Assembly: GCA_029263395.1 (NCBI GenBank)
Contig: JAJCXO010000266.1
Location: 1 to 51,216, forward strand
DNA from: Acidobacteriota bacterium
Lineage (GTDB): Bacteria > Acidobacteriota > Thermoanaerobaculia > Multivoradales > J023
Direction of reading: 5' to 3'
DNA: 51,216 nt
In this document: piece by piece, positions 1-51,216 of the stretch
How positions within the stretch are numbered: the stretch's first letter is position 1
Layout: every line of letters starts with the position of its first letter
Made by a program: the position numbers and the translations under genes
Notes under the pieces: model-generated
Told to the model about the DNA's origin: nothing
Seen by the model: the letters and a program-made list of their open reading frames with translations, nothing else
Database searches by the model: none

Positions 1-293
1 AGGACCGAGTCCGGCAGCAGTGGTCACAGATTCGGGAGATCGATATCGAGGCACTGTCGCGCAATCAGCTTGAAGCGACCCGTGGCTGGCAGCTGCCAGC
101 CGACCCTGGAGAGTGGGTAGGCCAGGTAATGGCCCATGAGGATGGACTCTGGTATCTCGAACTGCGCGGTCCTCGGCTGCCGGCTCGATTCGACATCGTC
201 CACCGTTATCTTCATGTTTATGCCAGCTTTGATCCGGTGAGTGGTGCCGTCGACGACCTGACCGTGACCATCCGAGGCTGGGTACTCGAATGA
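1..293 (+). CDS. C-terminal part of an unknown protein (5' end outside window)
   Basis: A reading frame is open from the window edge (first full codon at base 3) to a TGA at 291-293 and gives about 96 residues. The tail is rich in Trp, Arg and Leu and ends RGWVLE. I recognise no domain. The stop overlaps the ATG of the next gene in an ATGA arrangement, so the two genes are probably co-transcribed and translationally coupled. Codon use matches the neighbouring real genes. No function can be given. Confidence 0.6.
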   Translation, partial: DRVRQQWSQIREIDIEALSRNQLEATRGWQLPADPGEWVGQVMAHEDGLWYLELRGPRLPARFDIVHRYLHVYASFDPVSGAVDDLTVTIRGWVLE

Positions 294-10495: not shown

Positions 10496-10510
10496 ATCGG
10501 GCTTGTGCGC

Positions 10511-11220: not shown

Positions 11221-11309
11221 ACCGAGAACTTGAGGGCACCACGCCCAGTAGACCAGCCGAGCGGTATCCGCTACTCGCGAGACCCGCTAGGCGCGCCAAG
11301 CTAGCGATT

Positions 11310-11495: not shown

Positions 11496-11508
11496 CGAGC
11501 ACCACACT

Positions 11509-14011: not shown

Positions 14012-14070
14012 CGCGGTATCGCTGACACGATATTGCTCAAAGTTCTATCGAACTGAGCGAGCCTATTTCC

Positions 14071-14733: not shown

Positions 14734-14754
14734 GCTAGCGATCCCGTCCGATGG

Positions 14755-14969
14755 CACAAGACCTCCCTCACTGAGCCGAAAATGGCAAACCGAGAGTTCG
14801 GTCGATCTTGTGGGCTGCGCCGCCGCTCCAGAACTCGCCGGATCTCTTGTAGTATGCCTAAGTTATTGTGGTGCCATCGGATACGAGATGCCAACAGGTG
14901 CGAAGCTCAAACATGCTCGCTGCTTGCTCGCTCCACAAGACCTCCCTCACTGAGCCGAAAATGGCAAAC
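14755..14969. repeat. Pair of 36-nt perfect direct repeats flanking 143 nt
   Basis: Bases 14755-14790 and 14934-14969 are identical over 36 nt (starting CACAAGACCTCC and ending AATGGCAAAC). A TCTTGTG at 14806-14812 is the inverse of the first bases of the repeat. The intervening 143 nt carry no gene. The pair sits between the convergent second acyltransferase and FAAL genes. It may be a mobile-element footprint or a duplicated 3' processing element. Confidence 0.8.
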
Positions 14970-14979
14970 TGGACGGGAT

Positions 14980-16827: not shown

Positions 16828-17613
16828 ATGTCGACGTTATCTAACCAGTCTATCGCGCTCGACCAGTTTCCGACCGCGACGAGGGTCGATACCCCTCCCC
16901 GCACCAGAGAAGTCCATCTGTGGAGTGTCGATCTGTATCCGTCGGCGGACAAGGTAGCGGCGTTTCGCCAGCTGCTGACACCGGAGGAGATCCAGCGCTC
17001 CGAGCGATTCAAATTTGATCGTCATCGCCGCCGGTTCATCGTTCGCCGCGGTGCCCTGCGTCGACTGGTGGGGGCCTATCTCGATCAAGATCCTACCGTC
17101 GTGCAATTTGCGGAAGGCGACAAGGGCAAACCGTTTGTACCTCAAGCCGACACGCCAGCAGCGGAGACGCTACATTTCAACCTCACCGACTCCAAAGACT
17201 TGGCGATTTACGCTTTCACTCGCGGAGCCGAGCTTGGGGTTGACGTTGAGGTCCTGCGTCCGATGCCTGATGCCTTGGACATCTCCGAACACTTTTTTGC
17301 CGCCGAAGAACGGGATGACTTGCGCCGAGTGGCCGAGGCCGATCGGGCGGTCGCGTTCTTCAATTGCTGGACCCGCAAAGAGGCTTACATCAAAGCGATT
17401 GGTGAAGGCCTTTCCGAACCCTTGGACCGTTTCTGTGTGTCCCTCATTCCGGAGCAACCCGCACGATTCATTCATCTCGGGGGGGATCCACAACGCGCTG
17501 CCGATTGGACGTTGTACCACATGCTGCCCGAGGCTGGAGCGGTGGGGGCATTGGCCCTTGAAGGTGGTGGCTGGCAAGTGACCCGTTGCTGCCGCTACGC
17601 TTTGGATGACTGA
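16828..17613 (+). CDS. 4'-phosphopantetheinyl transferase, Sfp type
   Basis: 261 residues. Signature residues are D139 and E141 in GVDVEVLR (magnesium and CoA) and W181-K184-E185-K189 in FNCWTRKEAYIKAIGEGL. The N-terminal half has the usual RRFIVRRGALRRLVGAYL and HFNLTDSKDLAIYA blocks. Sfp-type enzymes transfer phosphopantetheine from CoA to carrier domains of polyketide, peptide or PUFA synthases. Its presence beside FAAL supports secondary acyl chemistry. The multi-domain synthase at the end of the window probably has carrier domains on a partner subunit and could be a client; that link is inferred. Confidence 0.9.
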   Translation: MSTLSNQSIALDQFPTATRVDTPPRTREVHLWSVDLYPSADKVAAFRQLLTPEEIQRSERFKFDRHRRRFIVRRGALRRLVGAYLDQDPTVVQFAEGDKGKPFVPQADTPAAETLHFNLTDSKDLAIYAFTRGAELGVDVEVLRPMPDALDISEHFFAAEERDDLRRVAEADRAVAFFNCWTRKEAYIKAIGEGLSEPLDRFCVSLIPEQPARFIHLGGDPQRAADWTLYHMLPEAGAVGALALEGGGWQVTRCCRYALDD

Positions 17614-35730: not shown

Positions 35731-36978
35731 TCAGAGCACGTCGAACTCGATGTCTACGGGTGACGAACCCAAACGCTCGAACCAGGCGATCTGTTCGGCA
35801 ACAAGATCAAACCGCAGCTGGATCTTTCCAGGCCGAGGGATTGGCACCGTCGTCTGGAGCGTGACCTGTTCACCGGCGGCGATGGAACGTCCGAGAGGTT
35901 GCCGATGATGGTCATCGTCGACGGTGTTGCGTTCAGGGTCGACGAGTTGGACCCCGAGCTGGACCACGCCGATCATGTCGCGGCTTTGGTCGAGCCAACG
36001 GGCAGTGCCAGTGTTGGTGACGGTAACGCTGAGCTCGATTGACTCGCCGGCAGAGGCTGACGCCGGGATGGGGCCGAGCTCGAGGTGATGGCTGAGCCCT
36101 TCGGGGCTGCGGCTGTCTGGCACAAACGGACCGTTGTGGAAGAAGAAGACCGGGCCGTCGGTCATACCCTGGCGCACCATCTCTCGCACGGTGCGCGCCA
36201 GTGGTCGGGGCCAGACGTGTCGACGCCACCAGGTGCGCAGACTCCTCAGCTTGCCGAGGCCCACCGCTGGGGCAGCAACCCGCAGGTAGTCGGCGAGGGA
36301 GAAGAGGGTGGGTTGAGGGATGCCTTGCGTGCAAGCGAAATCGGTGAAGCCGGCGTCCTGGGCAAGGGCGAAGATGTGTTCCAGGCGGATATCGTTTTCG
36401 AGAGTGATGGTCTTGGCCATCTCCAGCTGCGCCGGTGCGGTGCGGGAATGCCGTCGACCCGGTTCAGCAAAACCAGCGATACCACCGGGACGCAGGACCC
36501 GTTGCATCTCGCCGAGGGCTTCGCGTTGATTCGGGATGTGGTGAAAAGCGTCGAAGCAGATCACACGATCCACCGAGGCGTCGGGCCAGTTCAAGCGCCG
36601 GCCATCGAAGGGGAGGAAATGGGCCGGTGCGCGCTGCTCGCCAACATAGTGGCGATCGAAGGCTTGGCGGCCGAGGCGCAGAGCCGTGGTCGAGACGTCG
36701 ACGGTGACGGTCTCACAACCGAGTTGGTTGAGGTAACGTGACAGCCAGCCCAAGCCGCCGCCAAAGTCCATCACCGTCATACCCTGGCCCAACCGCAGAC
36801 CACCGAGCAGCAGCCCGAGTTTGTGCAGACTCTGAGGTGCCTCGAGCAGGTTGGCAAACGGCTTGCGGGCCTCGTGGACGATCAACGCTTCGCCGTCCAA
36901 CCGTGCAAAATAACTCTCGGCGGTGGCGCACAACTCCTCAACGCTATGTTCGCGGAGAAAGGTTTCGACGTCGATCAA
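35731..36978 (-). CDS. SAM-dependent methyltransferase with C-terminal beta-sandwich domain
   Basis: 415 residues. A class I methyltransferase domain (about 55-200) has VMDFGGGLGWLSRY for SAM binding, an acidic beta-2 end (VTVDVS), ICFDAFHHIPNQREALGEMQRVLRPGG and AEPG. A C-terminal region (about 295-415) looks like an Ig-like or carbohydrate-associated fold (SIELSVTVTNTGTARWL, then WFERLGSSPVDIEFDVL). That fusion recalls enzymes acting on cell-surface glycans. It starts with TTG at 36978, overlapping the stop of the M23 peptidase gene by 4 nt, so the two are co-transcribed. The substrate is unknown. Confidence 0.75.
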   Translation of the reverse strand: MIDVETFLREHSVEELCATAESYFARLDGEALIVHEARKPFANLLEAPQSLHKLGLLLGGLRLGQGMTVMDFGGGLGWLSRYLNQLGCETVTVDVSTTALRLGRQAFDRHYVGEQRAPAHFLPFDGRRLNWPDASVDRVICFDAFHHIPNQREALGEMQRVLRPGGIAGFAEPGRRHSRTAPAQLEMAKTITLENDIRLEHIFALAQDAGFTDFACTQGIPQPTLFSLADYLRVAAPAVGLGKLRSLRTWWRRHVWPRPLARTVREMVRQGMTDGPVFFFHNGPFVPDSRSPEGLSHHLELGPIPASASAGESIELSVTVTNTGTARWLDQSRDMIGVVQLGVQLVDPERNTVDDDHHRQPLGRSIAAGEQVTLQTTVPIPRPGKIQLRFDLVAEQIAWFERLGSSPVDIEFDVL

Positions 36979-39092
36979 GGGTGGGCCGCTCCGAGGTCAG
37001 GATTCGGTCGGGTCGTTCCAGGTGGTGGGTTTACCTGGCAGGTGGCGAAGGCGTCGGTGTTGGTGACTGCTGAAGCTGCGCGGCCGAGCGGATTGAAGGT
37101 TGAGGACACTACGCCGGTGAAGCTGTCGGTGACCCGTAGGGTGAACTCGACATCGGTGGTGGCAGCAGCAAAAACCCAGAAGCGATCGTTGATTGCGCAG
37201 CCATCGAGCACCTTGACCAGCATCTCCCAGTTGGCGTCGTCAAAGAACCACAACAGTCCCGAGTCGGAGGCAGAAACCACTTTGCGGGCGTCTCCGGTTT
37301 GATCCTGGTGGTCCCGAAACGACACCTCAACCTTGAAGCGTCCAGCGAGCAAACACAACGTGGTGTCGTCCTCGACGCACGGCTCGGGCTCACCTTGGAA
37401 CGTCGTCGCGGTGGCCGTATTGGAATAGCCCGAGTTGCCGGTTTGGCTGGTGGCCAGCACTCGAAAAGTGTAGGTGGTCTGGGGCTCGAGGCCGGTGAGG
37501 GTTACTTGAGTGCTGTTGGCGGCGACGGATTGCAGCCGGCTGTAAGCACCGGTAGTCCTGGCTTCGATCTCGAAGCTGGTTTCGTTTGTCGAGTTGTCGC
37601 GCCACGAGAGCGTGATGTCCGACGCTGACAGCGGGGTGGCGCTGAGTTGCGTCGGCGCGCCTGGGCCCTCGGTGGTTGCGCTGGCGGTGTTGGTCCAGGG
37701 TGACGAGCCGCCGGCGCTCTGGGCGCTGACTCGGTAGCTGTAGGTTGTACCCAGCGCCAGGTTTGAATCGACGTAGCGGGTTGAGTTGGCAGCCACCGTG
37801 GCGAGGGTGGCGAAGCTGCCGGCCGAGCGTTGAATCTCGAAGCCCGATTCGTCGGCGGAGTTGTCATTCCAAGTCAGCTCGATCCGTCGATCGCCGAGGC
37901 TTCTGGCGCCGAGGCTGCTCGGTGCCGCGGGCGGCCTGAGAGGCCCCGGATTGGTCAATCCGCTCCAGGCGCACAAGCGGACCCCGTCGCGCTCGAGCCA
38001 GAAGAAGTTACAGTCGGTCTGGTAGTCAAAGTTGCCGGGATGGACCACAAAGCCGCTCAGCGAAACGCCAGCCAGCGACGTAAACTCACCGTTGCGGCGC
38101 AGCGAAAAATGGATGTGGGGACCGGTCGAGCTGCCACCGCCACAAAGAGCTTGGGCTTGGTTGTTGGCATAGTTGGCCACCCGTTGATTACCTTGAACGG
38201 TTTGACCATTGCCAACGGCGATGTTGTCGAGGTGGTAATACGAGGTCGACCAGCCTCCAGCGCCGATCACCTCGGCGAAACAGCTCGAGTGGATGATGAC
38301 CGTGCCGCCATGCGCGGCAACCACCCAATCGTTCGAAGTGTTGGCGCCCCAGCCAGGCCAGTTGCGACTGAAGTCGAGTGACGACGGTGGTCCCTGGTTG
38401 TTGCCGATGAACGTGTGAGAGCCGTTGAAGATCCAGCTCAATCCGATGCCGTAGGGCAGCTGCAGGAAGTTGGGCGCCGGTGCCGTTGCCTTGTCATGAA
38501 AGCGTGCGCCAGGGGTGGGTTGTGAGAGGTCTGGTGCGTTCGGGAACAGGTCCGAATAAACGGTGAGCAACCTCGCCAGGGCATCGGGCGAGCCGAGCAG
38601 CTCGATCAACGCTGCGGTGGCGGCACCTGCGTCGCGACCGCGGAGCGGCAAGTCGTCTGTGTTAGTTGGATAGGCGTAGAACGAGCCAGCGAGCTGACTC
38701 AAGCCGTCTCGCAGTTGGTCCGAGAATCCGGCCTTTGCGATCAATGCACCCAAGGGGCGTTTCGAATCGTCTGGATCAGAAACCGTCGACTCTAGCTTGG
38801 TCGGGTCGCTGATCATCTTGCTCTGCATTTCGACCAGAGAGAGCACGATCTTGGGGCTGATGCTCGCATAGGCGGACCAATGGGAGAGGGTCTCGCGATA
38901 GGGGGCAAGATGGGGCGCCGAACGTTCGATGAACCGGTCGAGATCGAGGTTGATCATTTCCTCAGGCGAGTAAACCAGGCGACTATTGTCGACTGCGGGC
39001 GGCTCCGAACCGTAACTCGAGCCGAGGTTGACCGCGAGGGTCGCCAAGAGGATCGTCGCACAACGAAACAGGTTCGAACGGGTTGGCGTCAT
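36975..39092 (-). CDS. Secreted M23 (LasA/beta-lytic type) peptidase with two FN3 domains
   Basis: 705 residues. A signal peptide covers about 1-28. The catalytic region (about 215-345) has H226 in GSHTFIG, D240 in SSLDFS, H287 in YYHLDN and the HxH pair H326/H328 in TGPHIHFSL, the zinc and catalytic set of M23 endopeptidases. Two fibronectin type III domains follow (about 390-475 and 480-570). The C-terminal domain (CLLAGRFKVEVSFRDHQDQTGDARKV to DGCAINDRFWVFAAATTDVEFTLRVTD) is one I associate with exported proteins of Thermoanaerobaculia-like Acidobacteriota. It probably lyses peptidoglycan cross-links or elastin-like proteins of other organisms. It is followed by the methyltransferase, overlapping by 4 nt. 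Confidence 0.83.
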   Translation of the reverse strand: MTPTRSNLFRCATILLATLAVNLGSSYGSEPPAVDNSRLVYSPEEMINLDLDRFIERSAPHLAPYRETLSHWSAYASISPKIVLSLVEMQSKMISDPTKLESTVSDPDDSKRPLGALIAKAGFSDQLRDGLSQLAGSFYAYPTNTDDLPLRGRDAGAATAALIELLGSPDALARLLTVYSDLFPNAPDLSQPTPGARFHDKATAPAPNFLQLPYGIGLSWIFNGSHTFIGNNQGPPSSLDFSRNWPGWGANTSNDWVVAAHGGTVIIHSSCFAEVIGAGGWSTSYYHLDNIAVGNGQTVQGNQRVANYANNQAQALCGGGSSTGPHIHFSLRRNGEFTSLAGVSLSGFVVHPGNFDYQTDCNFFWLERDGVRLCAWSGLTNPGPLRPPAAPSSLGARSLGDRRIELTWNDNSADESGFEIQRSAGSFATLATVAANSTRYVDSNLALGTTYSYRVSAQSAGGSSPWTNTASATTEGPGAPTQLSATPLSASDITLSWRDNSTNETSFEIEARTTGAYSRLQSVAANSTQVTLTGLEPQTTYTFRVLATSQTGNSGYSNTATATTFQGEPEPCVEDDTTLCLLAGRFKVEVSFRDHQDQTGDARKVVSASDSGLLWFFDDANWEMLVKVLDGCAINDRFWVFAAATTDVEFTLRVTDSFTGVVSSTFNPLGRAASAVTNTDAFATCQVNPPPGTTRPNPDLGAAHP

Positions 39093-39225
39093 CAGGGTTC
39101 TCGGGTGGCAAGAGCGGTGTTGGGGCTCAGCCCGTAGGCCGCTTGGAGGTTACCAGAGGTTGTAAGTCGGAACGTGGTCTTACTCTGTGGTGCCCTGGCC
39201 AGCGCGTCGCCTCCGAACAGGCCAA

Positions 39226-39248
39226 GGCCCCGGCCAAAGGCCGGGGCC
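39226..39248 (-). terminator. Perfect 10-bp GC hairpin downstream of the TonB-receptor-like gene
   Basis: GGCCCCGGCC (39226-39235) and GGCCGGGGCC (39239-39248) pair around a 3-nt loop. It lies 66 nt after the stop of the minus-strand receptor gene. There is no T-run, common for terminators in GC-rich genomes. It may equally shape the 5' leader of the M23 peptidase gene. Confidence 0.5.
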
Positions 39249-39313
39249 AGAAATGGGCGATAGATGGAGCGGTGTCGGTAGAAGAGTGGTATCGCTAAAA
39301 GAGCGGTACCGAT

Positions 39314-42265
39314 CTAGAACCGGAAGCCGGCGGACACGCGGAAGGTCCGCGGGCGCTGGTAGTCAGTGTCGCGCACGGGTTGGCCGAAGTTGGAGCCCAG
39401 ATCCCAGTGCACACCTTGGATCGGGGTTTCGGTGAACGGATTGAAGGCTTCGAAGTCGGCCGAGTTGGTGGCGTCGAGGACGGAGGTGTTGACCGCCAGG
39501 GCCCCGGACTCGTCGAAGACGTTCAATATTTCGGGTTGTAAGAAGATCTCGAAACGTTTACCGCCGAGGTTCCACATGAAGGCGTAGTTGACGGCGAGGT
39601 CGGTGCTGGTGATGTCGTCGCTGGTGAAGGCATCCCGACCGGTGAACCAATAGTTGACGGAGCGAGGGGGTGTCAGGTAACCCGGATTAGCGATGAAGTT
39701 GGGGCTGTTGACCGCACCGCGGGCGCCGAACGGAGTCCCGGAAGAGAAGCTCTGCAACAGGCTCAAGCTGAGGTTGTGATGGTCGTTTTGTAGCAGGTCG
39801 TAGACTGCCCATAAGCGTACCTTGTGGGTTGAGTCGATCGACAGGCTACCCCGTGGTTGATGTTGGTCGAAGGCTTTGTACTCCGGGTACTCACCAGCGG
39901 AGCCGGTGAGTGGGCCAGAGTCACGATTCTCACCCTCGAAGTTGCCGCGGGCGTGGGACCAGGTCCAGTTGCCAGCAACGTTGAAGCGATCGGTCACCCG
40001 ATACGAGAATTGGGTGTGGAGGCCGTCGTAGACCCGTTCCAGGAACGAGTCGTCATTGACGATCAAGCCGAGATCGAAGTCACCAAGCTCTTCGGTGCTG
40101 GTCTGGCCGGTGGAGAGGTCGCGCCGTTCGAAGTAGAAGTCACCGTAGTCGCGATGCACGTAGTCGGCACGGACCAGGCCACGACTTCCCAGCTTTTTGG
40201 TGACGCCGAAGGTCGCCTCGGTGGCGGTAGGTGAGGACAGGGAGTCGCGAATGATGGTGTTGGCGCCGGGGACGTCGGCGAAAAACAGCAGCTCCGTGTT
40301 GGACGTTCCACCAACGCTGTCGAACCAGTCGAAAACTCGACGGATGGCTTCGTCCTGCCCGATCAGGCTGGCGGTTGGCGCATTGGGGTCGCCGTTGATT
40401 GCCGGCCCTTGATAGTCCCACTCGAAATCGGCAGTGGAGCCAGCAACCGAGGTGCTGTCGGCGACGCCGAAGTTGAGCGCCGCAACGTACTGACCATAGG
40501 AGGTGTGAAACACCAGGTCGCCGTCACCTCTGAGGTCATAGGTGGCCCCCAGCCGAGGACTGATGTTGGAGTCGTTGGCTACCGTGGCACCACCGGAATT
40601 GCTGCCGTCGTTTTCGTCGTACCGGACGCCGAGGTTGAAGGACCACTTGTCGTTGAGTTGCCAGTTGTCGTTGGCGAAGATGGAGTTGATGGTGAAATCA
40701 GCACCTTCGGTGGGATTGAAAATTGGCCACCACTGGACGTACGCGACACCGGGGGTGATCACCGGAAAGAGCTCAGGGGCACCGTCACGCTCGATGGTTG
40801 TGTCGGTCCAGACCTGGAAGGCGGTTGGCGATTGGTGGTTCTCCGAGGCAGTCAGGTCGCTGAACGAGTCGTATCCCAGCACGATGTCGTGGGAGCCTGC
40901 CTTCTGAGTCGAGGCGAAGTAGGAGCCTTTGATCAGCATCGCCTCGTTGTTGCGCTCGTTGTCTCGGCAGCTACCGCAAAAGTAGGGCGTGTGATAGGTC
41001 GCGGCGCTGTTCTGAATATCGATCAGGGTGGTCCCGCCGACGAAGTCGGTGGCCGTGCTGCCGCTGCCTTGAGCGATGATGAACTCACGCTCGGAGTATT
41101 GGGCCTCGAGAAAGAGGTTCGGCGTTGCGATGCCAGTGTAATTGAAGGCGGTCAAGGTCTGAGGGTCGGCGCGATCGGTCAGGGCCTTGGTCTCGAGCAC
41201 AATGCCGAACGGATCGTTGTTGGTGGTCTGGCTGTCGATATCGATGATCGAGCCGAGCAGCGAATGACTTTGCGTGAGGGCCAAGGTCAATTTACCTTCG
41301 AGCCGATCCTCGCTGCGGCCGCGGGTGTAAGGGACGTTGGTGATGAAGGTCTGCTCCGCCGACTCGCGATCGAAGGTACGGCCGGCGGTGAAGAACCACA
41401 GTCGATCCTTGAGGATGAAGCCGCCGAGCGTCGCCTCGAAGGTGTCCTTGATTGAATCGTCCTGCGCGACTGTGATGGGAGTTGGTTCCTCCCAGTCCTC
41501 GTTCTCGAGGCTGACCCGCAGTGAACCGGAGATCTCGTTGCCACCGGAGCGGGTGATGGCGTTGACCACACCGCCGGTGAAGCGTCCGTATTCAGCCGAA
41601 ATTGCCGACGTCGAGGTGGTGGTTTCCTGGATCGCGTCCTCGATGAACAAGTCGAGAGATTGACCGCGTAGGTTCTCGTTGACTACCACGCCATTGATCA
41701 AGAACAGGTTCTCGAACGACTGGGCGCCGGCAATGGTGATGGTGTTGCGATCTTGATTGGCACCCGGGCCACTGTTCTGGACGCCGGGAGTGAGCAGTAC
41801 GGTGGAATCGAGGTCACGGGCGACAGCCAGCTTCTCGATCATGCTGGAGTGGTAGGTCGTGTCCGCCGAGCCGGTGGCCGAAAAAGTCTCGGTATTGCCG
41901 GTGACGATGATGGTCTCGGTGACCTCCGAGACCGACATTTCGGTGTCGAACTGTTTGGTCTGTGCTGCGGCGATCAAGATCTCCGCGGTCTGAGTCTGCA
42001 TGCCTTCGAGGGTGAAGACGGCTTGGTAGGTACCCGGCGGCAGGATGGCAAAAATGTAGGTTCCGCTGCCAGCTGTGATGTTGGTGCGAGAGCCTTGCAG
42101 ATTGGGCGACGTGATGGTGACGGTGACCCCAGGAAGGCCCGCGCCGTCGGCGGTCACTTTGCCCGTCAGCTTGCCGGTGGGATTACCTTGAGCGAGGGCA
42201 GGTCCGGTGATCAACCCGATGGCGACCGTGGTGCAGAGCAGCACGAGTAGGTGTTTCTTCAACAT
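39314..42265 (-). CDS. TonB-dependent-receptor-like protein with carboxypeptidase-regulatory domain
   Basis: 983 residues. A signal peptide (1-25) is followed by a carboxypeptidase-regulatory-like beta-sandwich (about 28-100: GKVTADGAGLPGVTVTITSPNLQG), then a plug-like part (about 110-230: VTETIIVTGNTE, TPGVQNSGPGANQDRNTITIAG, SAEYGRFTGGVVNAITRSGGNE) and an outer-membrane beta-barrel ending in the aromatic FRVSAGFRF. Acidobacteria encode many such proteins, thought to import or bind glycans, peptides or metal complexes. The start has AAGGAG 5 nt upstream. No TonB or lipoprotein partner is adjacent. The ligand is unknown. Confidence 0.87.
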   Translation of the reverse strand: MLKKHLLVLLCTTVAIGLITGPALAQGNPTGKLTGKVTADGAGLPGVTVTITSPNLQGSRTNITAGSGTYIFAILPPGTYQAVFTLEGMQTQTAEILIAAAQTKQFDTEMSVSEVTETIIVTGNTETFSATGSADTTYHSSMIEKLAVARDLDSTVLLTPGVQNSGPGANQDRNTITIAGAQSFENLFLINGVVVNENLRGQSLDLFIEDAIQETTTSTSAISAEYGRFTGGVVNAITRSGGNEISGSLRVSLENEDWEEPTPITVAQDDSIKDTFEATLGGFILKDRLWFFTAGRTFDRESAEQTFITNVPYTRGRSEDRLEGKLTLALTQSHSLLGSIIDIDSQTTNNDPFGIVLETKALTDRADPQTLTAFNYTGIATPNLFLEAQYSEREFIIAQGSGSTATDFVGGTTLIDIQNSAATYHTPYFCGSCRDNERNNEAMLIKGSYFASTQKAGSHDIVLGYDSFSDLTASENHQSPTAFQVWTDTTIERDGAPELFPVITPGVAYVQWWPIFNPTEGADFTINSIFANDNWQLNDKWSFNLGVRYDENDGSNSGGATVANDSNISPRLGATYDLRGDGDLVFHTSYGQYVAALNFGVADSTSVAGSTADFEWDYQGPAINGDPNAPTASLIGQDEAIRRVFDWFDSVGGTSNTELLFFADVPGANTIIRDSLSSPTATEATFGVTKKLGSRGLVRADYVHRDYGDFYFERRDLSTGQTSTEELGDFDLGLIVNDDSFLERVYDGLHTQFSYRVTDRFNVAGNWTWSHARGNFEGENRDSGPLTGSAGEYPEYKAFDQHQPRGSLSIDSTHKVRLWAVYDLLQNDHHNLSLSLLQSFSSGTPFGARGAVNSPNFIANPGYLTPPRSVNYWFTGRDAFTSDDITSTDLAVNYAFMWNLGGKRFEIFLQPEILNVFDESGALAVNTSVLDATNSADFEAFNPFTETPIQGVHWDLGSNFGQPVRDTDYQRPRTFRVSAGFRF

Positions 42266-42704
42266 ACGCTCTCCTTTGTCGACGGAGACGCGGTGTTGAT
42301 AGTGCGGATAGGGTGCCGTGATCCAGGGACCTAGATCGCGACGGGTCGCGCCTCCTCAGTCGCTGTTAGACATAGCAATCGACGCGCCGCTTGCGGCTCG
42401 ATCGAGATTCCTAACCGGCTATCAGCGGACGATCGGTGGCGGAAGGAGCGCGGCGTTGATCAGGATCCTGGGATGGGTGGATGGTCACGAAAGTCCAATG
42501 GAGGGATTTTGTGGACCGTTGTGCTGGTTGATGATCGAAGGCCACCCCAGAAAGTTTTTTAATATATTTTGTGGGCCCTGTTGGTGTCCCCCAGATGTTA
42601 GGAGTCGGCATGATGAAATCTTCAAGGGCTTGAATTTTCCCTCTCGACGGCTCAAACATTTGAAGTGAGCCACATGTCCCACGTGGGCCAGGCGTCGAGG
42701 CGCT
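42266..42704. other. Intergenic region with an AT-rich core
   Basis: No gene with supporting features is seen. An AT-rich stretch at about 42550-42572 (TTTTTTAATATATTTTGTGG region) stands out and could hold the promoter of the minus-strand receptor gene. The frames on either strand (for example 42318-42668) have no domain. Confidence 0.5.
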
Positions 42705-44267
42705 TCAGTTGATGGCTGGCCCGAGCGTTAGATAGTTTTGCAATTCGGGATAGGTAGCCTGCAGACGCTCTTCGAAGCCAGCCGCGTTGTTGCCTTCCAC
42801 ACCCCAGCCTTGCCAACGTCCCCACAGCATCGGACCGTGGGACAGCATTAGGGTAGCCAAGAGCAGCAGGTAGGCGGTGAGTGGCAAGGTGGCGACCAAG
42901 CGGCTCGAATTGCCCAGGCGAGCCGCGTCCCGGGATCGCAGCCAGGAGGCAATGGCACTTACCGCTGCGACACCGGCGACGATCACAACCGCTCGCAACC
43001 CGAGCTGGCGTCCGTCGAAGGTCCACGATGCCCAAGACGTCATCGAGGTGATCCCAGCGAGGTAGAGCCCAACAGCACCGACGGTCAGGCTGCCGGTCCG
43101 GCGCTGCATCGACGATTCCGAAACCAGCCATCGGCCGGTGGTGGCAATGGCGAGGCCAACAGCAAGGGCAAACGGGACCTGGTAGAGCAGGGTGAAGCGG
43201 CCGCCTTCGTAACCCCGCAGCAGCAGGTAAAGGAATGGGGCGAATCCCATGGTCGGCAGCGCTAGCAGCAAGGCTCGTGCTCTAGGGCATGGCTCTCGGC
43301 CGAGGCGTCGTATTCCGATGGCTAGGCCGATTAAAGCCCAGGGCGCCATCAAGGTGCTCGTTGGCCAGGCGGCAAGATGGGTGTAGACGATTAGCATCGT
43401 ACGCCAGTTGCCGTGCAGAAACTCCCTTTGTTCGAAGTAGCCGAAGGTGGTCTTCTGCACTTGCTCGAAGAGCGAGTGGATCGGCCCGAGATCGCCGGTG
43501 AGCACGATGCCGCTGGCTCGCAGCATCTCCAGGTGGAGATGAGCGGCGATCAACCAGAGTAGGGTCGGGAGCAACGATGCGGCCAGGATCATCAGTCGCC
43601 GGCTGAGATCACGCACGACCAAGCGGCGGGACTGGTGCGAAGTCGACAGTCGTTCAGCGGCGATGGCCATCAACCACAGGCCAACAAACGCATAAAGGAA
43701 CAGCCCTTTGCCGAGATAGGTCAACGGTGCCAAACTCAGGATCATTGCACCGGTAGTGAAGCGGCGCAGGTCTTGGTGGAGCATCCACCCCATGGCTGCC
43801 AGTACCACCACCAACAGCAGCGGCTCGGTAAACTCGGATTTGGCGCCGGTCCACAGGCAGAGGTCCGACAAGGCGAAGGCCAAGCCAGTGAGGGTGGCGA
43901 CGGCGAGCCCAAATCGGGGGCGGGTCAGGCGAAACGCCAGCACAACCGCGAGCAAGGAGAAGATGACAGCCGGCAAGCGTGTCCAAGCGGGATGATCTGG
44001 TGTCAGATGAGCATTTGAGGCCTGGATCCAGAGCCACAGTGGGGTGACGGCATTGGAGCTGGTCAACGGCAGGTCGAAAACGACGTGGCTGATCGGCCCG
44101 TGCAGCGGCGGCGCCTGCACCTGACGCAAAGCTCGCTGGATCACTTGGACTTCGTCGTGGGTGTAAAGGAACGTCAGTGCGCCGAGCAGATGCAGCACCG
44201 CGGTCAACAGCACAAGACCACCGACGATCCACCGGCTGTGGCGCGTCGTCTGACGGTCGGATGTCAT
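42705..44267 (-). CDS. GT39/ArnT-like membrane glycosyltransferase
   Basis: 520 residues with about 11-12 membrane segments. The acidic pair D38-E39 in the first periplasmic loop (FLYTHDEVQV) and the following PLHGPISH, ASNAHLTPDHPAWTRLPAV resemble polyisoprenyl-phosphate-sugar transferases of the GT39/GT83 type. These enzymes move a sugar from an undecaprenyl- or dolichyl-phosphate carrier to lipid or protein outside the membrane. The ATG is only 9 nt after the stop of the giant lipid synthase gene on the same strand, so the two are very likely co-transcribed, and a glycosylated lipid product is plausible. Confidence 0.75.
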   Translation of the reverse strand: MTSDRQTTRHSRWIVGGLVLLTAVLHLLGALTFLYTHDEVQVIQRALRQVQAPPLHGPISHVVFDLPLTSSNAVTPLWLWIQASNAHLTPDHPAWTRLPAVIFSLLAVVLAFRLTRPRFGLAVATLTGLAFALSDLCLWTGAKSEFTEPLLLVVVLAAMGWMLHQDLRRFTTGAMILSLAPLTYLGKGLFLYAFVGLWLMAIAAERLSTSHQSRRLVVRDLSRRLMILAASLLPTLLWLIAAHLHLEMLRASGIVLTGDLGPIHSLFEQVQKTTFGYFEQREFLHGNWRTMLIVYTHLAAWPTSTLMAPWALIGLAIGIRRLGREPCPRARALLLALPTMGFAPFLYLLLRGYEGGRFTLLYQVPFALAVGLAIATTGRWLVSESSMQRRTGSLTVGAVGLYLAGITSMTSWASWTFDGRQLGLRAVVIVAGVAAVSAIASWLRSRDAARLGNSSRLVATLPLTAYLLLLATLMLSHGPMLWGRWQGWGVEGNNAAGFEERLQATYPELQNYLTLGPAIN

Positions 44268-44276: not shown

Positions 44277-47200
44277 TTACGATCGGGTCACGACGCTTGG
44301 CCCTCGGTCACCGAACAGGCGTCGGGCGAACTCTGCCAGCCATTGGTCGGTCGGCGACTTGTCCAGCAGCAAGCGACCGTTGGGCACCGCCGCCAGCAGT
44401 CGTTGGATCTCGCGGCTTGGATTCCGCGAGTGCTCCAAGGTCTTGTAGATTGTGGCATGTTCGTGAGTGGCGCCGGTGTTGGCAACCCACTCGTCGACTT
44501 CGGCGGCAAACTCGGGATTAGGTGGTAACGGTGCCTCTTCGTCGTGACTCGGCCCGAGAGCATTGATCGCCTCCATCACAACTTGACGACGGTCCTTGTA
44601 ACGCAGGGTTTCGAGCTCTTCGGGTAACATTGGCGCGCCGAGCCAATAGTCCTGTTGGCCATGACCGAGGGGAAATTCAATCCGCTGCTCGAGAGGTTCG
44701 GCCGGCAGGCCACCGATGAAGCGCACCGGCACGATCGCGGCGCCGTTCTTCACCGCCATATCGACGAACGAGCCGCTGAGTGAAGTCACCGGCTGGCGGC
44801 AGGTGAGGGAGCGGGTGCCTTCGCAATGCACGGCAACTGACCGTGGCTCATCGCGCATTCTCTTGCCGAGTTTGCGGATGATCAGTGGCAGCGAACGCAT
44901 GTTCTCGCGCTCGAAGAAGGTGATCACCTCGGGGTCGACCACGCCGGGATAGGAGAAACAGTGGGCGATCAATTGTCCTAGCCACGAGGTGCGATGTTCC
45001 GCTTTGGCCAGGGTAACAGTCGGGGTGCCGGCGAGCGCCGAAGCCAGCATCGAAAACAACAGGGATTCGACACCAACCTGATGGTTGGCGAGGAACAGCG
45101 TGCTGCGACCCTGGATCGCACGCAGGCCCGCTGGATCGACAACCACCACTCGTCGCACGAAGCGTTCGACGAGCCCGTAATAGACATCTTCGACTGGCCA
45201 ATCGGAAATACCCAAGTGGTTGGACCAGTAGCTGCGCAGAGGCCCAAGATCGACTTGCGGCGCGCCACGATCGGTGATCGTGACCTCGCCACCGTGGGCG
45301 GTCTCGAGAGCCACAGGGAAGGAGGTCAAGGGATAACGATCCGATATGGCGGTACCAATCTCGCCGACGCCAGAATCGTGCGCCTCAGCGTCGAACGCAA
45401 AGCTGACGCTTGCCGGGTGTACCTCGGCGCGGTAGGCAACGTGATCCTTGACTGCGACCTCGCGGGTCATCAAGGCACGGTTGCGCGCAGCCTCCGGGGA
45501 GACACCATAAGCATGGGCGACGGTACCTGGTAGCCAGTCACTGGCTACGATGTCCGCTTCACTCAGCTGAGTCTGTTCGGGCTCGAAACGGGACAAGCCG
45601 AGCCCTGGTACCGGCAGGTGATCGCGGAGGAAGGCACGTCGCTCGAGGGCTGGAGCCGAGCCTAGCGGACCTTTGGGCAACAGCACCTCGTGGAGCCGGA
45701 GATCAGCCCAGGGCAGATCGTCGACCAGCATCTGAAGGTGGAAGACCGCCTCTCGGTGTGGTGGATCGTAGCTTTCGAAACGAGCTTCACAGCGCACGGT
45801 ACCGGATGCCGGTGGTCGGGCATAGAAGCGAACTTCGCTCAGCCGTTGCGGGTAGGCGACAACATCTTGCGGAATATCGGCGCACCAGAGATGTAACGCA
45901 GCGTGGGGAATGCCGTGGGTGGCGGCGTCGAGTAAGGCCGGATGGAGCGTTGCTAGCGGCACTGAGCCGGCGCCGGCATCAAGCTCGGAGCTCGACCCGG
46001 CTTGGCCCATCGATAGCCGCTGCAAGAGATGGAAAGCGGGGCCATGAAAGAGCTCGCCAGCAGCATAAGGATCTTCCTGCTGGACCGCGTCCTCGAGCGG
46101 CGGTAGGGGCTTGGGCGGCGAGCAGAAGCTGCGTGCCATCAGCACACGGCCGGTAGCGGCAACCTCAAAGCGTGACAGGGCTGGGTTGGCCGCGTCACGC
46201 CACGCCAACAGACGGACGTCGATAGCTCCCATTTCCGAGCCACGATGCTCCTCGGACATGACCTCTGTCTTGAGCCGCCGGGCACCCTTTGGGAAGGATA
46301 CCCAACGTTGCACTCGTACGTCTTCGAAGCCGATCACTCGCAAATCGGAGCGACGCTCGTGGGCAGCAGCTGCTAGTCGGTCGACCAGGGTCATCATGGG
46401 CAGAGCCGGTATCGTCCAGGTGGGTTGGTGGTCGACGATCCAAGTGTCGTGGGCTGGGTCGAGAATCTCTTCGCCATCAATCGCAGTAACCGACGCCGGC
46501 ACCTCGTCAGCAGCCACCGGTTCAGAGCCAGGGGTAGTTGCCGGGTCAGAGGTGGCTGTATCGATGCTGGGCTGCGCGGCATCGACTGCCCTGACGTCAC
46601 CCCCGACCTCGACGGGCTCGCTTGCAGGCTCAGTCGAAGCCTCTTTGCCGGCCAGTGTCTCAGCCTGATCCGATGGTCCCGACACGATGCGCATGCCGAG
46701 GCCAGTCGCCGAGTAAATACGTTTGCCATCAACCCACAGATAGGCCTCAGCAATCGCAAAAGCGCCGCGGTCATCGCGACCCACTTCGACGATCTCCAGC
46801 TCAGTAGTGATGACACCGTTGGTCGGCAGCACCTGTCCACGGTACTTCCAGGTCAACGGTTGATCGACACCGATGGGCTCGAATCGAGGCCGCTCAATCC
46901 CTTCGCCGAGTCCGCAGTGAATCATGGCGAACTGCAACGCTTGGATCATCGCCTCGATCCCGAGCGAGCCGGGTTGTACGGAATCCTGGAAGAAGTGGGC
47001 TTTGAAGAACCACTCCCCAGGATCGACGGTTTTTTCGGCGCGCAGCCGTCCGAGGCCGGCTTTGCCAGCCTCAGGCCAGAAGCCGGTGATGCGGTCGAGC
47101 ATCAGCAACTGGCGCTCGGCGAGACGAAGTGTGCCGGAGCAGTAAGCCTCAGGGCGGGCCGTGAGGTCGAGTTGAAAGTCGGATGGCTCAGTGAGCCAAG

Positions 47201-50200
47201 CGCGTTCGGCGTCACTCGACGGCAGACCAACTTGGTTCTGCATCGCTGCGGCCGGGAAGAAGCCGAACGCGGTGGACATCTCGAAAATCGGCTGGTGGTC
47301 GTCGCGCATCGCAACCTCGAACCGCACAATCAGCACCCCCGCCGAGCTCGAGGTGGCGGTCAGCTTGACGTGACTGGTCAGGATGCCGCTGGTCGGTAAC
47401 ACCTCGGCGGTCAAGGTGCCGGTGCCATCGAGGTTGCGGAACTGTAAATCGGTGTCGGTGGTCAAAGCACTGCCGATGTACGAGGCTAGCCAACCACAAG
47501 GTTGCAGACCAGCTTCCATCAAGACCGCAAACGGCATCGTTGGGGCGCCGTTTTCGGCGAAGTACCACGCTTCGGGGGGCACGTCGTACTCCGCTTCCAG
47601 GATCGCGCCGGGCTCGAACCGTCCCATCGCACCATCGATCGAGGCGATGCGCGACATGAAGTGGTAGGGCGGACCGGGCAACCGTGCCACGCTGCGCGGA
47701 CTGTCGAAGACGCGGTACATTTCGCCGAAGGCTTCGGACGGTCGACCCCAGGCACAGGCCAACAGAGACGAGTAGTCGAAACGAAACCCGTCATTCTCTG
47801 CGATCGGTCTGCCGGTGGGGCGTTCGCCACCCGGAAACGGTTGATCGAGCATGCTGGGATCGATGCTGAGTGGCCAGTCCGGCACCAGGTGCAGGCCGAG
47901 GCGTTGCGCATGGAACGCCTTGAGGCCATCCACGGTGACCAACAAGTCGGCGCGGACCGTGGGCTGCGGACCGGCGATGACTTCGTGGACAAAAACCTCG
48001 TAGACCAGCTCGCGTGAGCTCGGAATCGCCTGGCCGCGGCAGCGCATGAGGTAGGTCTCGTCGGGTACCGGTTCAAAACGCCAGCCATCGCGCTCGAGGG
48101 TGAAGCCACACGCCGTGAGATAAAAGCTCAAAGCTTGAAAACAACCTTCGAGCATCAGCGTCCCAGGCATACAAAGGTCGTTCTTGAAATGACCATCGTA
48201 GATCCAAGACTCGGCGCTAATGGCGGTGACAGCCCGCAAATAGCCACGTTGCCAAGGGCCGCCTGCGGGATCAAACTGGGTCACCTGGTCGAGCAACAGC
48301 ATACGACCGCTCTGAACTGCCGGGGTCAAGGTGTGGGCGGCTGCCAGCTCGAAGCCCGGACCCATGCAGTCCATCACGCGACCCTCGGAGAAGGCCACCA
48401 TCTGGTCGTGGGAGAACTGACGGTGGTGGGGCAAGGCTCGCGGTGGATCGAGCTGGCCGGTCGGTGGGGTTTCGGTGGCAGGATCCCACAACACACCGGC
48501 GGAGCCGGCGAGCTCCTCGTCGGTGAAAAACCCAGCTTGGCCGTGGCGCACCTCGAGGCGGACTTCATCGTTGATCCGGCAGTCGTAATGGAAGAAGAAC
48601 AGCCGAACGTCGCCCTGTTTGGCGTGCCCGTCGATGTGGATGTCGTAGGCCAGGGTGTCGCCGGGACTAGGCAGGCCGCCGCGGTAGGTCAGTTCACAGC
48701 CCAGCAGTCGATAGACCCGTTCACTCTGGTTGAGGAAGTCGACACCGAGCCAGGAGATCAGGAGCAGGTCGGCTTGGCCGGCTTCGATCATCAACCCGCC
48801 GGGCATATGACCGCGGTGCAAGTACCAGGAGTCGGCTGTGACGTCGGTTTCAGTCCAAATGGTGCCGACACCCATGGTGCCGGGCTCAGCGTCGATACCG
48901 GTGACCCGGTCGGCGAGTAGGAAGGGCGGCTCCGGCATCCGGGTTTGGCGTTCGTAGCCGTCCTGGCGTTCGAACATGGGCCCGAAGATGTCGGAGACCT
49001 TACCGGAAGCCAGCACCTCGAGCTCCTGGCGCGAGATTCTCAGGCCAGGTAGTGTTTTGGGAGGCTGCTGCGTCTGCTGCTGGGGTGCGACGGCAACCTC
49101 GGGCTCCGGCGTGGGTGCTGGCTCGACGGCAGACTTTGGAGTTGATGCTGGAGCCGGTGCCGTTACGGGCGTCGGTTTTGGAGCGACGGGTATCGCAGCG
49201 CGCTTTAGCTCAATCGGGGCCGCTGACTCGGCGGGAGCCTGTTGTTCGACGATGGGTGCCACCACCGAAGCACTTTGAACATCAGCCGGCTCTCCCGCCA
49301 GCCCCACAACCACGTCGGCGGATGCTGCAAAGCGGGTGCGAGCGTGCAGCATGTCGGCGAGCGCTTTTTGACGCAAGGCAAGGAACTGCTGGTGGAGTGT
49401 AGTCTGCGCGCCGAGAAAGCTCTGTTGGTTGGTGGTGATCTGGTCTTGTAGGGCAGTGATGTTGTGGATCACGCCTGGGTTCCAGCGACCCGTGGGCGCG
49501 GCCACTGGAGCCATTTGAGGTACGGGGGTACTCTCCACCGAGGCTGTCGTGACGGATGCCGAGGCGGACACCGCGGCTGGCTGAGCCACCACGGGGGCCA
49601 GCTCGGGGAGGTTCGGTGCCTCGACGCCTGCTGAGCGGCTTGCCGTTGCGATTGTTGCGGCTGGCGCTGTGGCGGACGGAGTTGGATCCGTCACCTGGGG
49701 CGGTGCGACGTGAAAGTCAGGCAGCACGGACGGGAGTGTCGGTGCGGGGGCCATGAATTGAGGCTCTTCGAGGTTACTCATCAGCATGTCGCTCATCGAC
49801 GCCGCAGGGGGTGGCGTCTCAGTCATTGGAGATTCGATAGGAGAAACGGGTTGGCTCGCCGTAACAGTTTGGTGCGCCTTCACAGTTTGGTTCGCCGTGA
49901 CAGTTTGGTTCGCCGTGACAGTGGCCTGGGTTTCGACCGTGGTCACCGTCGTCGACGGGGCGGTTGGTGCAGTGGGAAGCTGCACCCGAGGCCAGTGGGC
50001 GGGGAACGACAAGGCCTTGTCCGATACCGCGGTTCGGCTGTTGCGGTCGGCATGGAACGGTGCCCAGCTCAGATCGACGCCCGCCGCCAGCAGCCGGGCG
50101 GTGGCGTCGACGGCCTGGCGCAGCGAGGCGCCAGGTTTGTCGACGGATCCGGCACGGTCGAGAGGCACCGCGAGATAGCCGCTTGTTGGGATTCCTCGGG

Positions 50201-51216
50201 CGGTGAGGATCTTGCGGATCCATCCGCTGCACAGACCGCGCGGACCATGCTCGAGGAAAATCCGGACGCCATCGTCCCAGGCTTGTCCGATTAGAGCTGG
50301 GAAGTCTAGAGTACGGATCGCCTGACCGAGGATGGCCTGGGCGGCGCTTTCGCGGTCCGGGTGATAGTGGCTCAGGGTCGAGTGGCTGTAGAAGCGCACA
50401 TCGGGCACGTCGGTGGTCGGTCGGCGATGGAGGTCGAGCCACGCCTCGGCTACTTCGCCAACTTCTGGACAATGTACCGCGAGGTCATAACCGAGCGGGA
50501 CCGCTGTGACTCCGAGCCGTTGGATCACCCGTTGGCAAGCCTCGTGGTCACCGCCGATCACCATATCTTCTGGGCTGTTGAGCAGGGTGAGATGCACGCG
50601 TTCTTCATCGGCGAGCACAGCACGCACCTGGTCGACCGGAGCGCTGATCACGAAGTTGGCCCAGGTGCCGTCCTCGAAGCCGGCAGCTTGCCAGGCTCGC
50701 TGAACCGCTGCGAAGTTGCCGCCAAGCTCGTGGGTGAATAGTCCACACTCGATCGTGTCGCGGTTCAGCGCATCGAGATCGTTCCAGGCTCCCATCGCCA
50801 TCAGCGAATTGGACTCACCAGAGGAGTAGCCGATGACGGCTTCGGGGGTGAGGCCGAGCATGCCGCGGCTGAGCTCGGTGTGCGCTTGACAGAGGAAGGA
50901 GCTACCCCACAGCTGTTGCAACGGGGTTAATGGTTCGTCACCCTGCCGGTACACCCAATCGGCAGCGGCTGGCATGTCTTCCATGCGTTGGCCGAGTTGA
51001 TCGAGTAGTGCCGGGAAGGCCAGCAGAAGCTCGCGTCCCATGCCGCGGTAGGCGGCTCCGGCACCGGTGTAGACAAACGCCAACTCGCCAGCCAACGGGG
51101 TGTCGTGGAAATAGACCCCGCGTCGCGGTGGCCGTTTGGCACCTGGATCGATCAGGCCAGCCGGTACACCCAGCAGGCGTTGCGCCTCGTGGCGATGGAT
51201 CGCGAGCTCGGCATCG
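44277..51216 (-). CDS. Pfa3-like PUFA/secondary-lipid synthase, C-terminal part (AT-DH-DH-DH-LPLAT), 5' end outside
   Basis: The frame is open to the window edge; 2,312 residues are visible. Numbering from the TTG at 51095, the AT domain (1-375) has S91 in GYSSGES and H208. It is preceded by a KS-AT linker-like segment (GVYFHDTPLAGELAFVYTG), so a ketosynthase region lies beyond the edge. A Pro/Ala/Gln linker (376-685) includes TANQTV repeats and an ITALQDQITTNQQSFL helix. Then follow two FabA-like double hotdogs: DH1 (686-1075; H969, E983) and DH2 (1100-1475; H1367, E1381), each with one half lacking the standard motif; a PKS-type DH (1540-1810; H1556, D1723); and a PlsC-like domain (1955-2190; NH in FLANHQVGVES, EGTRS). 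This order matches myxobacterial Pfa3. It should make a long, dehydrated acyl chain and pass it to a lysophospholipid. Confidence 0.85.
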   Translation of the reverse strand, partial: DAELAIHRHEAQRLLGVPAGLIDPGAKRPPRRGVYFHDTPLAGELAFVYTGAGAAYRGMGRELLLAFPALLDQLGQRMEDMPAAADWVYRQGDEPLTPLQQLWGSSFLCQAHTELSRGMLGLTPEAVIGYSSGESNSLMAMGAWNDLDALNRDTIECGLFTHELGGNFAAVQRAWQAAGFEDGTWANFVISAPVDQVRAVLADEERVHLTLLNSPEDMVIGGDHEACQRVIQRLGVTAVPLGYDLAVHCPEVGEVAEAWLDLHRRPTTDVPDVRFYSHSTLSHYHPDRESAAQAILGQAIRTLDFPALIGQAWDDGVRIFLEHGPRGLCSGWIRKILTARGIPTSGYLAVPLDRAGSVDKPGASLRQAVDATARLLAAGVDLSWAPFHADRNSRTAVSDKALSFPAHWPRVQLPTAPTAPSTTVTTVETQATVTANQTVTANQTVKAHQTVTASQPVSPIESPMTETPPPAASMSDMLMSNLEEPQFMAPAPTLPSVLPDFHVAPPQVTDPTPSATAPAATIATASRSAGVEAPNLPELAPVVAQPAAVSASASVTTASVESTPVPQMAPVAAPTGRWNPGVIHNITALQDQITTNQQSFLGAQTTLHQQFLALRQKALADMLHARTRFAASADVVVGLAGEPADVQSASVVAPIVEQQAPAESAAPIELKRAAIPVAPKPTPVTAPAPASTPKSAVEPAPTPEPEVAVAPQQQTQQPPKTLPGLRISRQELEVLASGKVSDIFGPMFERQDGYERQTRMPEPPFLLADRVTGIDAEPGTMGVGTIWTETDVTADSWYLHRGHMPGGLMIEAGQADLLLISWLGVDFLNQSERVYRLLGCELTYRGGLPSPGDTLAYDIHIDGHAKQGDVRLFFFHYDCRINDEVRLEVRHGQAGFFTDEELAGSAGVLWDPATETPPTGQLDPPRALPHHRQFSHDQMVAFSEGRVMDCMGPGFELAAAHTLTPAVQSGRMLLLDQVTQFDPAGGPWQRGYLRAVTAISAESWIYDGHFKNDLCMPGTLMLEGCFQALSFYLTACGFTLERDGWRFEPVPDETYLMRCRGQAIPSSRELVYEVFVHEVIAGPQPTVRADLLVTVDGLKAFHAQRLGLHLVPDWPLSIDPSMLDQPFPGGERPTGRPIAENDGFRFDYSSLLACAWGRPSEAFGEMYRVFDSPRSVARLPGPPYHFMSRIASIDGAMGRFEPGAILEAEYDVPPEAWYFAENGAPTMPFAVLMEAGLQPCGWLASYIGSALTTDTDLQFRNLDGTGTLTAEVLPTSGILTSHVKLTATSSSAGVLIVRFEVAMRDDHQPIFEMSTAFGFFPAAAMQNQVGLPSSDAERAWLTEPSDFQLDLTARPEAYCSGTLRLAERQLLMLDRITGFWPEAGKAGLGRLRAEKTVDPGEWFFKAHFFQDSVQPGSLGIEAMIQALQFAMIHCGLGEGIERPRFEPIGVDQPLTWKYRGQVLPTNGVITTELEIVEVGRDDRGAFAIAEAYLWVDGKRIYSATGLGMRIVSGPSDQAETLAGKEASTEPASEPVEVGGDVRAVDAAQPSIDTATSDPATTPGSEPVAADEVPASVTAIDGEEILDPAHDTWIVDHQPTWTIPALPMMTLVDRLAAAAHERRSDLRVIGFEDVRVQRWVSFPKGARRLKTEVMSEEHRGSEMGAIDVRLLAWRDAANPALSRFEVAATGRVLMARSFCSPPKPLPPLEDAVQQEDPYAAGELFHGPAFHLLQRLSMGQAGSSSELDAGAGSVPLATLHPALLDAATHGIPHAALHLWCADIPQDVVAYPQRLSEVRFYARPPASGTVRCEARFESYDPPHREAVFHLQMLVDDLPWADLRLHEVLLPKGPLGSAPALERRAFLRDHLPVPGLGLSRFEPEQTQLSEADIVASDWLPGTVAHAYGVSPEAARNRALMTREVAVKDHVAYRAEVHPASVSFAFDAEAHDSGVGEIGTAISDRYPLTSFPVALETAHGGEVTITDRGAPQVDLGPLRSYWSNHLGISDWPVEDVYYGLVERFVRRVVVVDPAGLRAIQGRSTLFLANHQVGVESLLFSMLASALAGTPTVTLAKAEHRTSWLGQLIAHCFSYPGVVDPEVITFFERENMRSLPLIIRKLGKRMRDEPRSVAVHCEGTRSLTCRQPVTSLSGSFVDMAVKNGAAIVPVRFIGGLPAEPLEQRIEFPLGHGQQDYWLGAPMLPEELETLRYKDRRQVVMEAINALGPSHDEEAPLPPNPEFAAEVDEWVANTGATHEHATIYKTLEHSRNPSREIQRLLAAVPNGRLLLDKSPTDQWLAEFARRLFGDRGPSVVTRS

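Follow-up and report, generated by a model that had tools for sequence, protein, structure and literature searches.

Does the gene that runs off the end of this contig belong to a synthase that makes a polyunsaturated fatty acid (PUFA) and passes it directly to a membrane lipid? The window, that is, the whole stretch of DNA analyzed here, is the entire contig C266 (51,216 bases) of a genome of 10.7 Mb in 291 contigs, 96% complete with 2.06% contamination. Positions 44277..51215 of its minus strand hold the 3′ part of a gene that we designate pfa3, a single ORF of 2312 codons plus stop (2312 aa) that is open at its 5′ end and continues beyond the contig edge. An earlier sequence-only reading had assigned to this frame an AT, two FabA-like double hotdogs, a third PKS-type dehydratase and a PlsC domain, and had taken the host for an Acidobacteriota. 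Pfam returns these domains, all above cut-off, in the order Acyl_transf_1, four FabA stretches (that is, two double hotdogs), PS-DH and Acyltransferase, and NCBIfam likewise matches FabA-type dehydratases; the host phylum agrees with the titles of a genus-mate (G001, "Acidobacteriota bacterium isolate OFTM268") and a family-mate (G006, "Thermoanaerobaculia bacterium isolate Co_bin.310"), and this kinship places the genome in Thermoanaerobaculia. The domain list holds as far as it goes and omits one unit, at 45201-45614, that is visible by fold comparison only. As set out below, the window probably carries the 3′ part of pfa3 in a complete, AGPAT-ended, three-gene PUFA synthase that is split over two contigs.

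The domains nearest the contig edge retain recognizable active sites. AT2 (50067..51092, minus strand, as for all domains of this frame) is a PfaB-type acyltransferase, the pfaB_fam match of NCBIfam scoring 92.5 bits, below the cut-off of 144.3, and carries GYSSGE at 50814-50831. This GYSSG, shared by seven of ten AT rows (the exceptions are GLSSG in L059, GHSFG in L054 and none in L062), is close to the GYSMG of Shewanella PfaB, GYSxG being given as the PfaB form and GHSxG as the malonyl form in available passages of PMC12895367. DH2 (47868..49031) and DH3 (46683..47786) are FabA-like double hotdogs in which the second half would be the active one (H1009...E1023 and H1407...E1421, respectively), with H and E/D occupying the FabA positions and the His conserved in 24/24 and 26/26 rows; the first halves, read from the sequence, appear to be pseudo-domains with no His at the motif spacing, that of DH2 having a His three residues on. 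DH4 (45666..46469) is a PKS-type dehydratase with His1596 and Asp1763 invariant (24/24), and its model resembles PKS dehydratases such as CurF (3kg6; Z 23.9, rmsd 2.9, 246 aligned). For the whole C-terminal model, most of the 50 fold matches listed are to dehydratases or entire PKSs, aligned through the DH region, and are uninformative on the AGPAT. The linker between AT2 and DH2 (49032-50066) holds a stretch, HQQFLALRQKALADM, possibly a docking or dimerising helix, a similar form of which occurs in the linkers of L050, L063 and L036, all without AT.

The remainder of the synthase lies on contig C59 (19380 bases) of the same genome, which supplies the KS-CLF at the 5′ end of the gene, the ACP-bearing partner and the PfaD-like enoyl reductase for which the sequence-only reading had proposed to look. 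One strand of C59 encodes a PfaD-family enoyl reductase (pfa1, 7354-8994; 643 bits against a family cut-off of 449), a PfaA-family protein (pfa2, 9004-16704; 1846 bits against 1010) and, from 16749, an open frame truncated by the contig end that is the 5′ part of pfa3; the order pfa1, pfa2, pfa3 is that of type L (myxobacterial) Pfa synthases. Pfa2 (2566 aa) is KS-AT-ACP-KR-PS-DH by Pfam, with four GIDSIK motifs marking tandem ACPs and a GHSYG motif, the malonyl-AT form, in its AT. KS2 in the tail of C59 has the Cys-His-His triad, and the second KS-like unit carries GGASSSVS in place of the DAACASS of KS2, as expected of a CLF. The solved chain 6riw ("ORF10"), which we take to be Moritella PfaC, covers KS and CLF in a single stretch (E 1.5e-105).

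No overlapping DNA was found between C59 and C266, and the join therefore rests on relatives. The Pfa3 frame of the genus-mate is intact (3258 aa). Its residues 82-955 are matched by the C59 tail and the adjoining residues 961-3257 by the window frame, at 77% each, so that the two pieces are complementary with ≈5 residues missing between them. In the family-mate, Pfa3 is a single frame of 3311 aa preceded by two frames that resemble pfa1 and pfa2 in size and order, the two features compared there. In the host genome, a single AGPAT match reaches E ≤ 1e-30 and one PfaA lies above cut-off. Both relatives offer the gene in one piece and could serve for expression.

Joined in this way, Pfa1 is by its domain matches a PfaD-type enoyl reductase, Pfa2 a KS-AT-4 ACP-KR-PKS-type DH protein, and Pfa3, read from the C59 tail into the window frame, KS-CLF-AT2-DH2-DH3-DH4-AcpS-like domain-AGPAT. 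The candidate PfaE is an Sfp-type 4′-phosphopantetheinyl transferase (PPTase) at 16828..17613 on the plus strand of the window, ≈27 kb from pfa3 and thus at a separate locus; it is one of two PF01648 matches in the genome, the other being AcpS on contig C148. This enzyme would load the four ACPs of Pfa2, after which KS1 and KS2-CLF would extend the chain iteratively with malonyl units and KR would reduce it. The FabA-like DH2 and DH3, with one active site each, are predicted to dehydrate and isomerise, giving cis double bonds, and the PKS-type DH1 and DH4 to form trans double bonds reducible by the enoyl reductase. AT2, as a PfaB-like long-chain acyltransferase, may help fix the end of elongation, and the AGPAT would transfer the acyl chain from the ACP to the 2-position of 1-acylglycerol-3-phosphate, possibly while the AcpS-like fold before it holds the ACP during hand-over. 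A PUFA of C20-C22 carrying four or five double bonds is the probable product, a range that sequence does not narrow further; Thermoanaerobaculia would thereby join the bacteria that probably make PUFAs. The closest culture-based support comes from Acanthopleuribacter and Sulfidibacter, whose EPA-containing cultures carry an AGPAT-ended Pfa3.

The AGPAT domain (44280..45209) departs in one respect from the intact PlsC motifs that had been claimed for it. The acceptor motif EGTR is present (44811-44822); the catalytic motif, NHQVGVE at 45066-45086, is HX4E rather than the canonical NHxxxxD (HX4D) of PlsC. Since NHxxxxE is found in 65 of 66 AGPAT rows (56 different sequences, window included) and NHxxxxD in one, HX4E is a family trait rather than decay; the EGTR pattern occurs in 60 of the 66. 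The expectation that this domain groups with other Pfa3 AGPATs is borne out by the tree. The domain probably moves the finished acyl chain onto a membrane lipid, and direct delivery to phospholipid would presumably hold here as in Minicystis rosea; the AGPAT activity of the Minicystis Pfa3 is itself worded "presumably" in the available text of PMC6731297, and a figure legend of PMC10540379 states AGPAT transfer in a passage that gives no data.

Each part of this assignment has an alternative. The synthase might produce the PUFA and release it through AT2 or a separate thioesterase, the HX4E AGPAT being inactive or a scaffold, a reading compatible with the PUFA part of the main explanation. It draws on the replacement of the HX4D of PlsC by HX4E in 65/66 rows, and on PfaB-type ATs handling long chains as synthesis ends, as passages of PMC12895367 describe; however, NHQVGVE and EGTR are invariant in all 24 rows of alignment A1, and a dead domain would hardly retain both, and the Acanthopleuribacteraceae, which produce EPA according to PMC8841776 as far as available, have an AGPAT and no AT2. 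We regard this reading as unlikely. A Pfa-like synthase of some other lipid, for instance a polyene or hydroxy fatty acid that the AGPAT would likewise place on glycerolipid, would accord with the listing by Shulse and Allen (PMC3098273, in part), in which type L clusters (from Sorangium, Streptomyces, Nakamurella and other hosts) have no product assigned. This is quite unlikely: the PfaA and PfaD models exceed their cut-offs on C59, the layout matches that of the Minicystis Pfa3, which yields n-6 PUFAs in yeast (PMC6731297, in part), and EPA is reported in two acidobacterial carriers of an AGPAT-ended Pfa3 (PMC8841776, in part). Finally, C59 and C266 might not form one gene, or C266 might be binned into the wrong genome, given the lack of overlapping DNA and the number of contigs and level of contamination of the assembly; complementary coverage of the genus-mate's gene at equal identity on either side, and the very presence of that gene in the genus-mate, make this very improbable.

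The preferred reading, a complete AGPAT-ended PUFA synthase, includes a domain between DH4 and AGPAT (45201..45614) that has an AcpS/PPTase fold. Its model has a mean pLDDT of 93.1. Foldseek gave no match at E ≤ 0.001, the best being human PPTase 2byd (E 0.12); 42 of the first 43 rows of the fold aligner are AcpS or other PPTases, 38 of them by title, the other four being 7ed0, 7ed1 and 7ed2 ("Transferase") and 4hc6 ("Rv2523c"), which we take to be AcpS/PPTases. The model aligns to Bacillus subtilis AcpS (1f7l) with Z 9.4, rmsd 2.6 and 99 of 118 residues aligned, and to E. coli AcpS (5vcb) with Z 9.3, against Z 6.5 for the best non-PPTase row. The fold aligner re-examines Foldseek's own candidates, and Z < 8 may reflect a common arrangement; 16 rows reach 8.0 and most lie below. 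Pfam gave nothing useful on the domain, and none of 24 members matched PF01648 at E ≤ 10, a search in which HMMER filters drop most matches above 0.1. The metal site of AcpS comprises an Asp in the first strand and the Glu of the KEA motif. The Asp position corresponds to T1882, where none of 24 rows has Asp, as placed by an aligned range (13..121 to 6..118) that is not residue-wise and leaves the register uncertain; Asp is found nearby in columns 1878 (8/24 rows), 1880 (6/24) and 1885 (5/24). The place of the KEA Glu, 1924, holds E in 16/24 and D in 8/24 rows, with the same uncertainty of register. The modelled domain thus appears to have the ACP synthase fold with its activity probably lost, and a role in ACP binding is a guess from that fold.

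The nearest known pairing that we can name for DH4 and this domain is in the enediyne PKS CalE8, which, in the available passages of PMC3107222, holds DH and PPTase domains in one protein. A rather unlikely extension of the model is that a retired ACP synthase became an ACP docking site, having arrived with DH4 as an enediyne-PKS-like DH-PPTase pair and now presenting the PUFA-loaded ACP of Pfa2 to DH4 and the fused AGPAT. If true, the chain would pass from ACP to lysophosphatidic acid directly, with no free acid or CoA ester, and the docking site would explain how DH4 and AGPAT jointly set the product. According to the accessible text of PMC6731297, the Aetherobacter Pfa3 gives different products once DH4 is added, an effect reversed by an H2270A mutation, and DH4 and AGPAT swaps shift products in PMC13063552 as far as available. 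The AcpS-like unit travels with DH4, which is transferred between synthases in engineering to alter PUFA products, and such swaps may have carried the unit unawares; among titles and abstract openings of the literature searched, none mentions a Pfa3 domain resembling a PPTase.

Among known systems, Minicystis rosea comes closest, as compared by published description, and the proposal of a Pfa3-type synthase with a myxobacterial-style fused acyltransferase is supported. Its published Pfa3 is KS2-CLF-AT2-DH2-DH3-DH4-AGPAT with a PKS-type DH4 (PMC6731297, in part), matching the layout of the joined Pfa3 here; gene order, Pfa2 organization (KS-AT-ACP-KR-DH) and a PPTase at another locus are also shared (PMC6731297 and PMC8436480, in part). 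It differs in host phylum, and the AcpS-like domain is unnamed in the passages available. The Minicystis cluster is itself described as syntenic with those of Streptomyces, Azospirillum and Tahibacter in the accessible part of PMC8436480. Aetherobacter fasciculatus shares the three-gene order and KS-CLF-AT-DH-DH-AGPAT, whereas its Pfa3 is given without DH4 (PMC6731297, in part). The marine PfaA-D systems of Shewanella, Moritella and Photobacterium share the KS-CLF and FabA-like dehydratases of PfaC, the PfaB-type AT and PfaD; their PfaC is without AT, DH4 and AGPAT, PfaB being separate (in part from PMC4882568 and PMC12895367).

The extent of novelty that the sequence-only reading saw in the layout is not upheld, a Pfa3-AGPAT with a third, PKS-type dehydratase having been published for Minicystis, nor is the route as poorly explored in Acidobacteriota as it supposed: PMC8841776, as far as available, reports pfa clusters and measured EPA in that phylum. 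An AGPAT-ended Pfa3 is a known arrangement, published in myxobacteria, common in Myxococcota genomes and found in Acanthopleuribacter and Sulfidibacter. Its presence in Thermoanaerobaculia appears to be unreported, no joint report of this class and polyunsaturated fatty acids having been found in the open-licence literature. Also apparently new, relative to the passages of the literature available, are the AcpS-fold domain between DH4 and AGPAT, HX4E in the AGPAT family, EPA producers with an AT-less Pfa3, and an AGPAT on a PfaA-like subunit in a giant sulfur bacterium.

We surveyed layouts in 34 rows, comprising 32 AGPAT-related loci from named genomes, the window and the C59 tail. DH4 plus a unit of ≈115 aa ("MID," the hidden domain) precedes the AGPAT in 26 of these. 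L058 and L059 have complete DH3 and AGPAT without DH4 or MID, L053-L055 a weak DH4 match only and no MID, and L057 and L060 the AGPAT alone; the C59 tail stops before the AGPAT region. All three Thermoanaerobaculia rows have AT2, as do L037, L042, L048, L056, L059 and L062, whose titles name Myxococcota or Pseudomonadota, whereas the AT of L054 is of PfaA type. AT2 was not found in Acanthopleuribacter (L050), Sulfidibacter (L063) and several myxobacterial rows; the three such rows inspected (L050, L063 and L036) have a Pro/Ala-rich linker in its place. Nor is a close AT2 relative found elsewhere in the Acanthopleuribacter and Sulfidibacter genomes (best E 1e-13 and 4e-13, versus 2e-81 in Enhygromyxa).

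These two organisms, Acanthopleuribacter pedis and Sulfidibacter corallicola, belong to the same phylum as the host and have an AGPAT-ended Pfa3 that includes both DH4 and the AcpS-like unit; they differ in lacking AT from Pfa3 and in an AGPAT only 40-45% identical to that of the window. In the available passages of PMC8841776, EPA makes up 12.2% and 6.2% of their fatty acids, respectively, both have a pfaDAB/C cluster in which the Pfa3 gene is annotated as pfaB/C, and the remaining acidobacterial genomes compared are without pfa genes. Because both acidobacterial EPA producers have a Pfa3 without AT, EPA synthesis as such does not seem to depend on AT2 in Pfa3, and a more distant AT or the AT of Pfa2 may replace it there. 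This calls into question a suggestion in PMC4882568, in the part available, that absence of the AT from Sorangium Pfa3 might explain its lack of EPA or DHA.

At E ≤ 1e-30, the AGPAT profile matches 5 of 396 Acidobacteriota genomes, those of the window and the family-mate at >470 bits and the other three at 181-229 bits; the genus-mate and the Acanthopleuribacteraceae, which should have matched, were not in the sample drawn. The gene is present in 3 of 40 near relatives, the host genome included. In the phylum of Enhygromyxa, 87 of 329 genomes match at the same threshold, 66 at ≥271 bits and 21 at 143-214 bits; in 2016 the AGPAT domain was described, in the accessible text of PMC4882568, only in type L pfa3 of myxobacteria. 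Five viral stretches matched a pattern, none encoding a relative. The lower-scoring PlsC-like matches, in G263, G317 and G416 (L068, L066 and L067; frames of 1434-2799 aa) and in 21 genomes of the phylum of Enhygromyxa, mostly lie in long frames and are perhaps a second class of PlsC-ended megasynthases.

An AGPAT tree made with a quick method unites the three Thermoanaerobaculia rows (99) and nests them in a group of 50 rows, mostly from myxobacteria (93, not starred), to which the Acanthopleuribacteraceae do not belong; without four long rows, 12 other rows and the Acanthopleuribacteraceae split from that group (97). Two acidobacterial origins by horizontal transfer, as indicated by p values of 4e-64 (AU test) for a concatenated tree, 6e-98 for a CLF tree and 1e-24 for a second concatenation, were rejected as a result, since in 8 of 18 rows the CLF profile had picked up the KS domain instead. 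With the CLF taken behind the KS, the data are compatible with a single acidobacterial clade (p 0.51; quick tree of 17 rows and 1780 columns). The same holds for the single-domain tests with CLF (0.145), KS (0.151), DH2+DH3 (0.69) and AGPAT (0.288, with L057, L066, L067 and L068 left out). No valid test rejects a grouping of all six acidobacterial rows, and on these sequence comparisons, transfer of pfa3 from Myxococcota is neither shown nor excluded.

Several further observations concern individual loci. In L054 (3494-18487, Candidatus Parabeggiatoa), the AGPAT ends a PfaA-like protein, KS-AT-ACP-KR-DH-AGPAT, which puts the acyltransferase on the subunit that bears the ACP; neighbouring genes encode a KS-KS-FabA protein and a small FabA protein. 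Thiomargarita rows are perhaps similar, L053 with KR-DH-AGPAT in a shorter frame and L055 with a weak DH and the AGPAT only. L049, titled "Klebsiella pneumoniae" (MAG LH-05nov19-24), carries such a Pfa3 with an AGPAT identical to that of a genome from the phylum of Enhygromyxa and is probably a mislabelled MAG. On the 3′ side of pfa3 in the window (36975-44267) lie genes for a membrane protein that matches PMT_2 at a score under the cut-off, an outer membrane protein of TonB type with CarboxypepD_reg and an M23 peptidase with fn3 domains, for which a domain scan gave no sign of cluster membership. The host genome (G000) is rich in secondary metabolism; large frames resembling PKSs, the longest of 11071 aa, are numerous on contigs C28, C167, C269, C15, C148, C221 and others, and C28 also encodes a second PfaD-like protein that scores under the cut-off.
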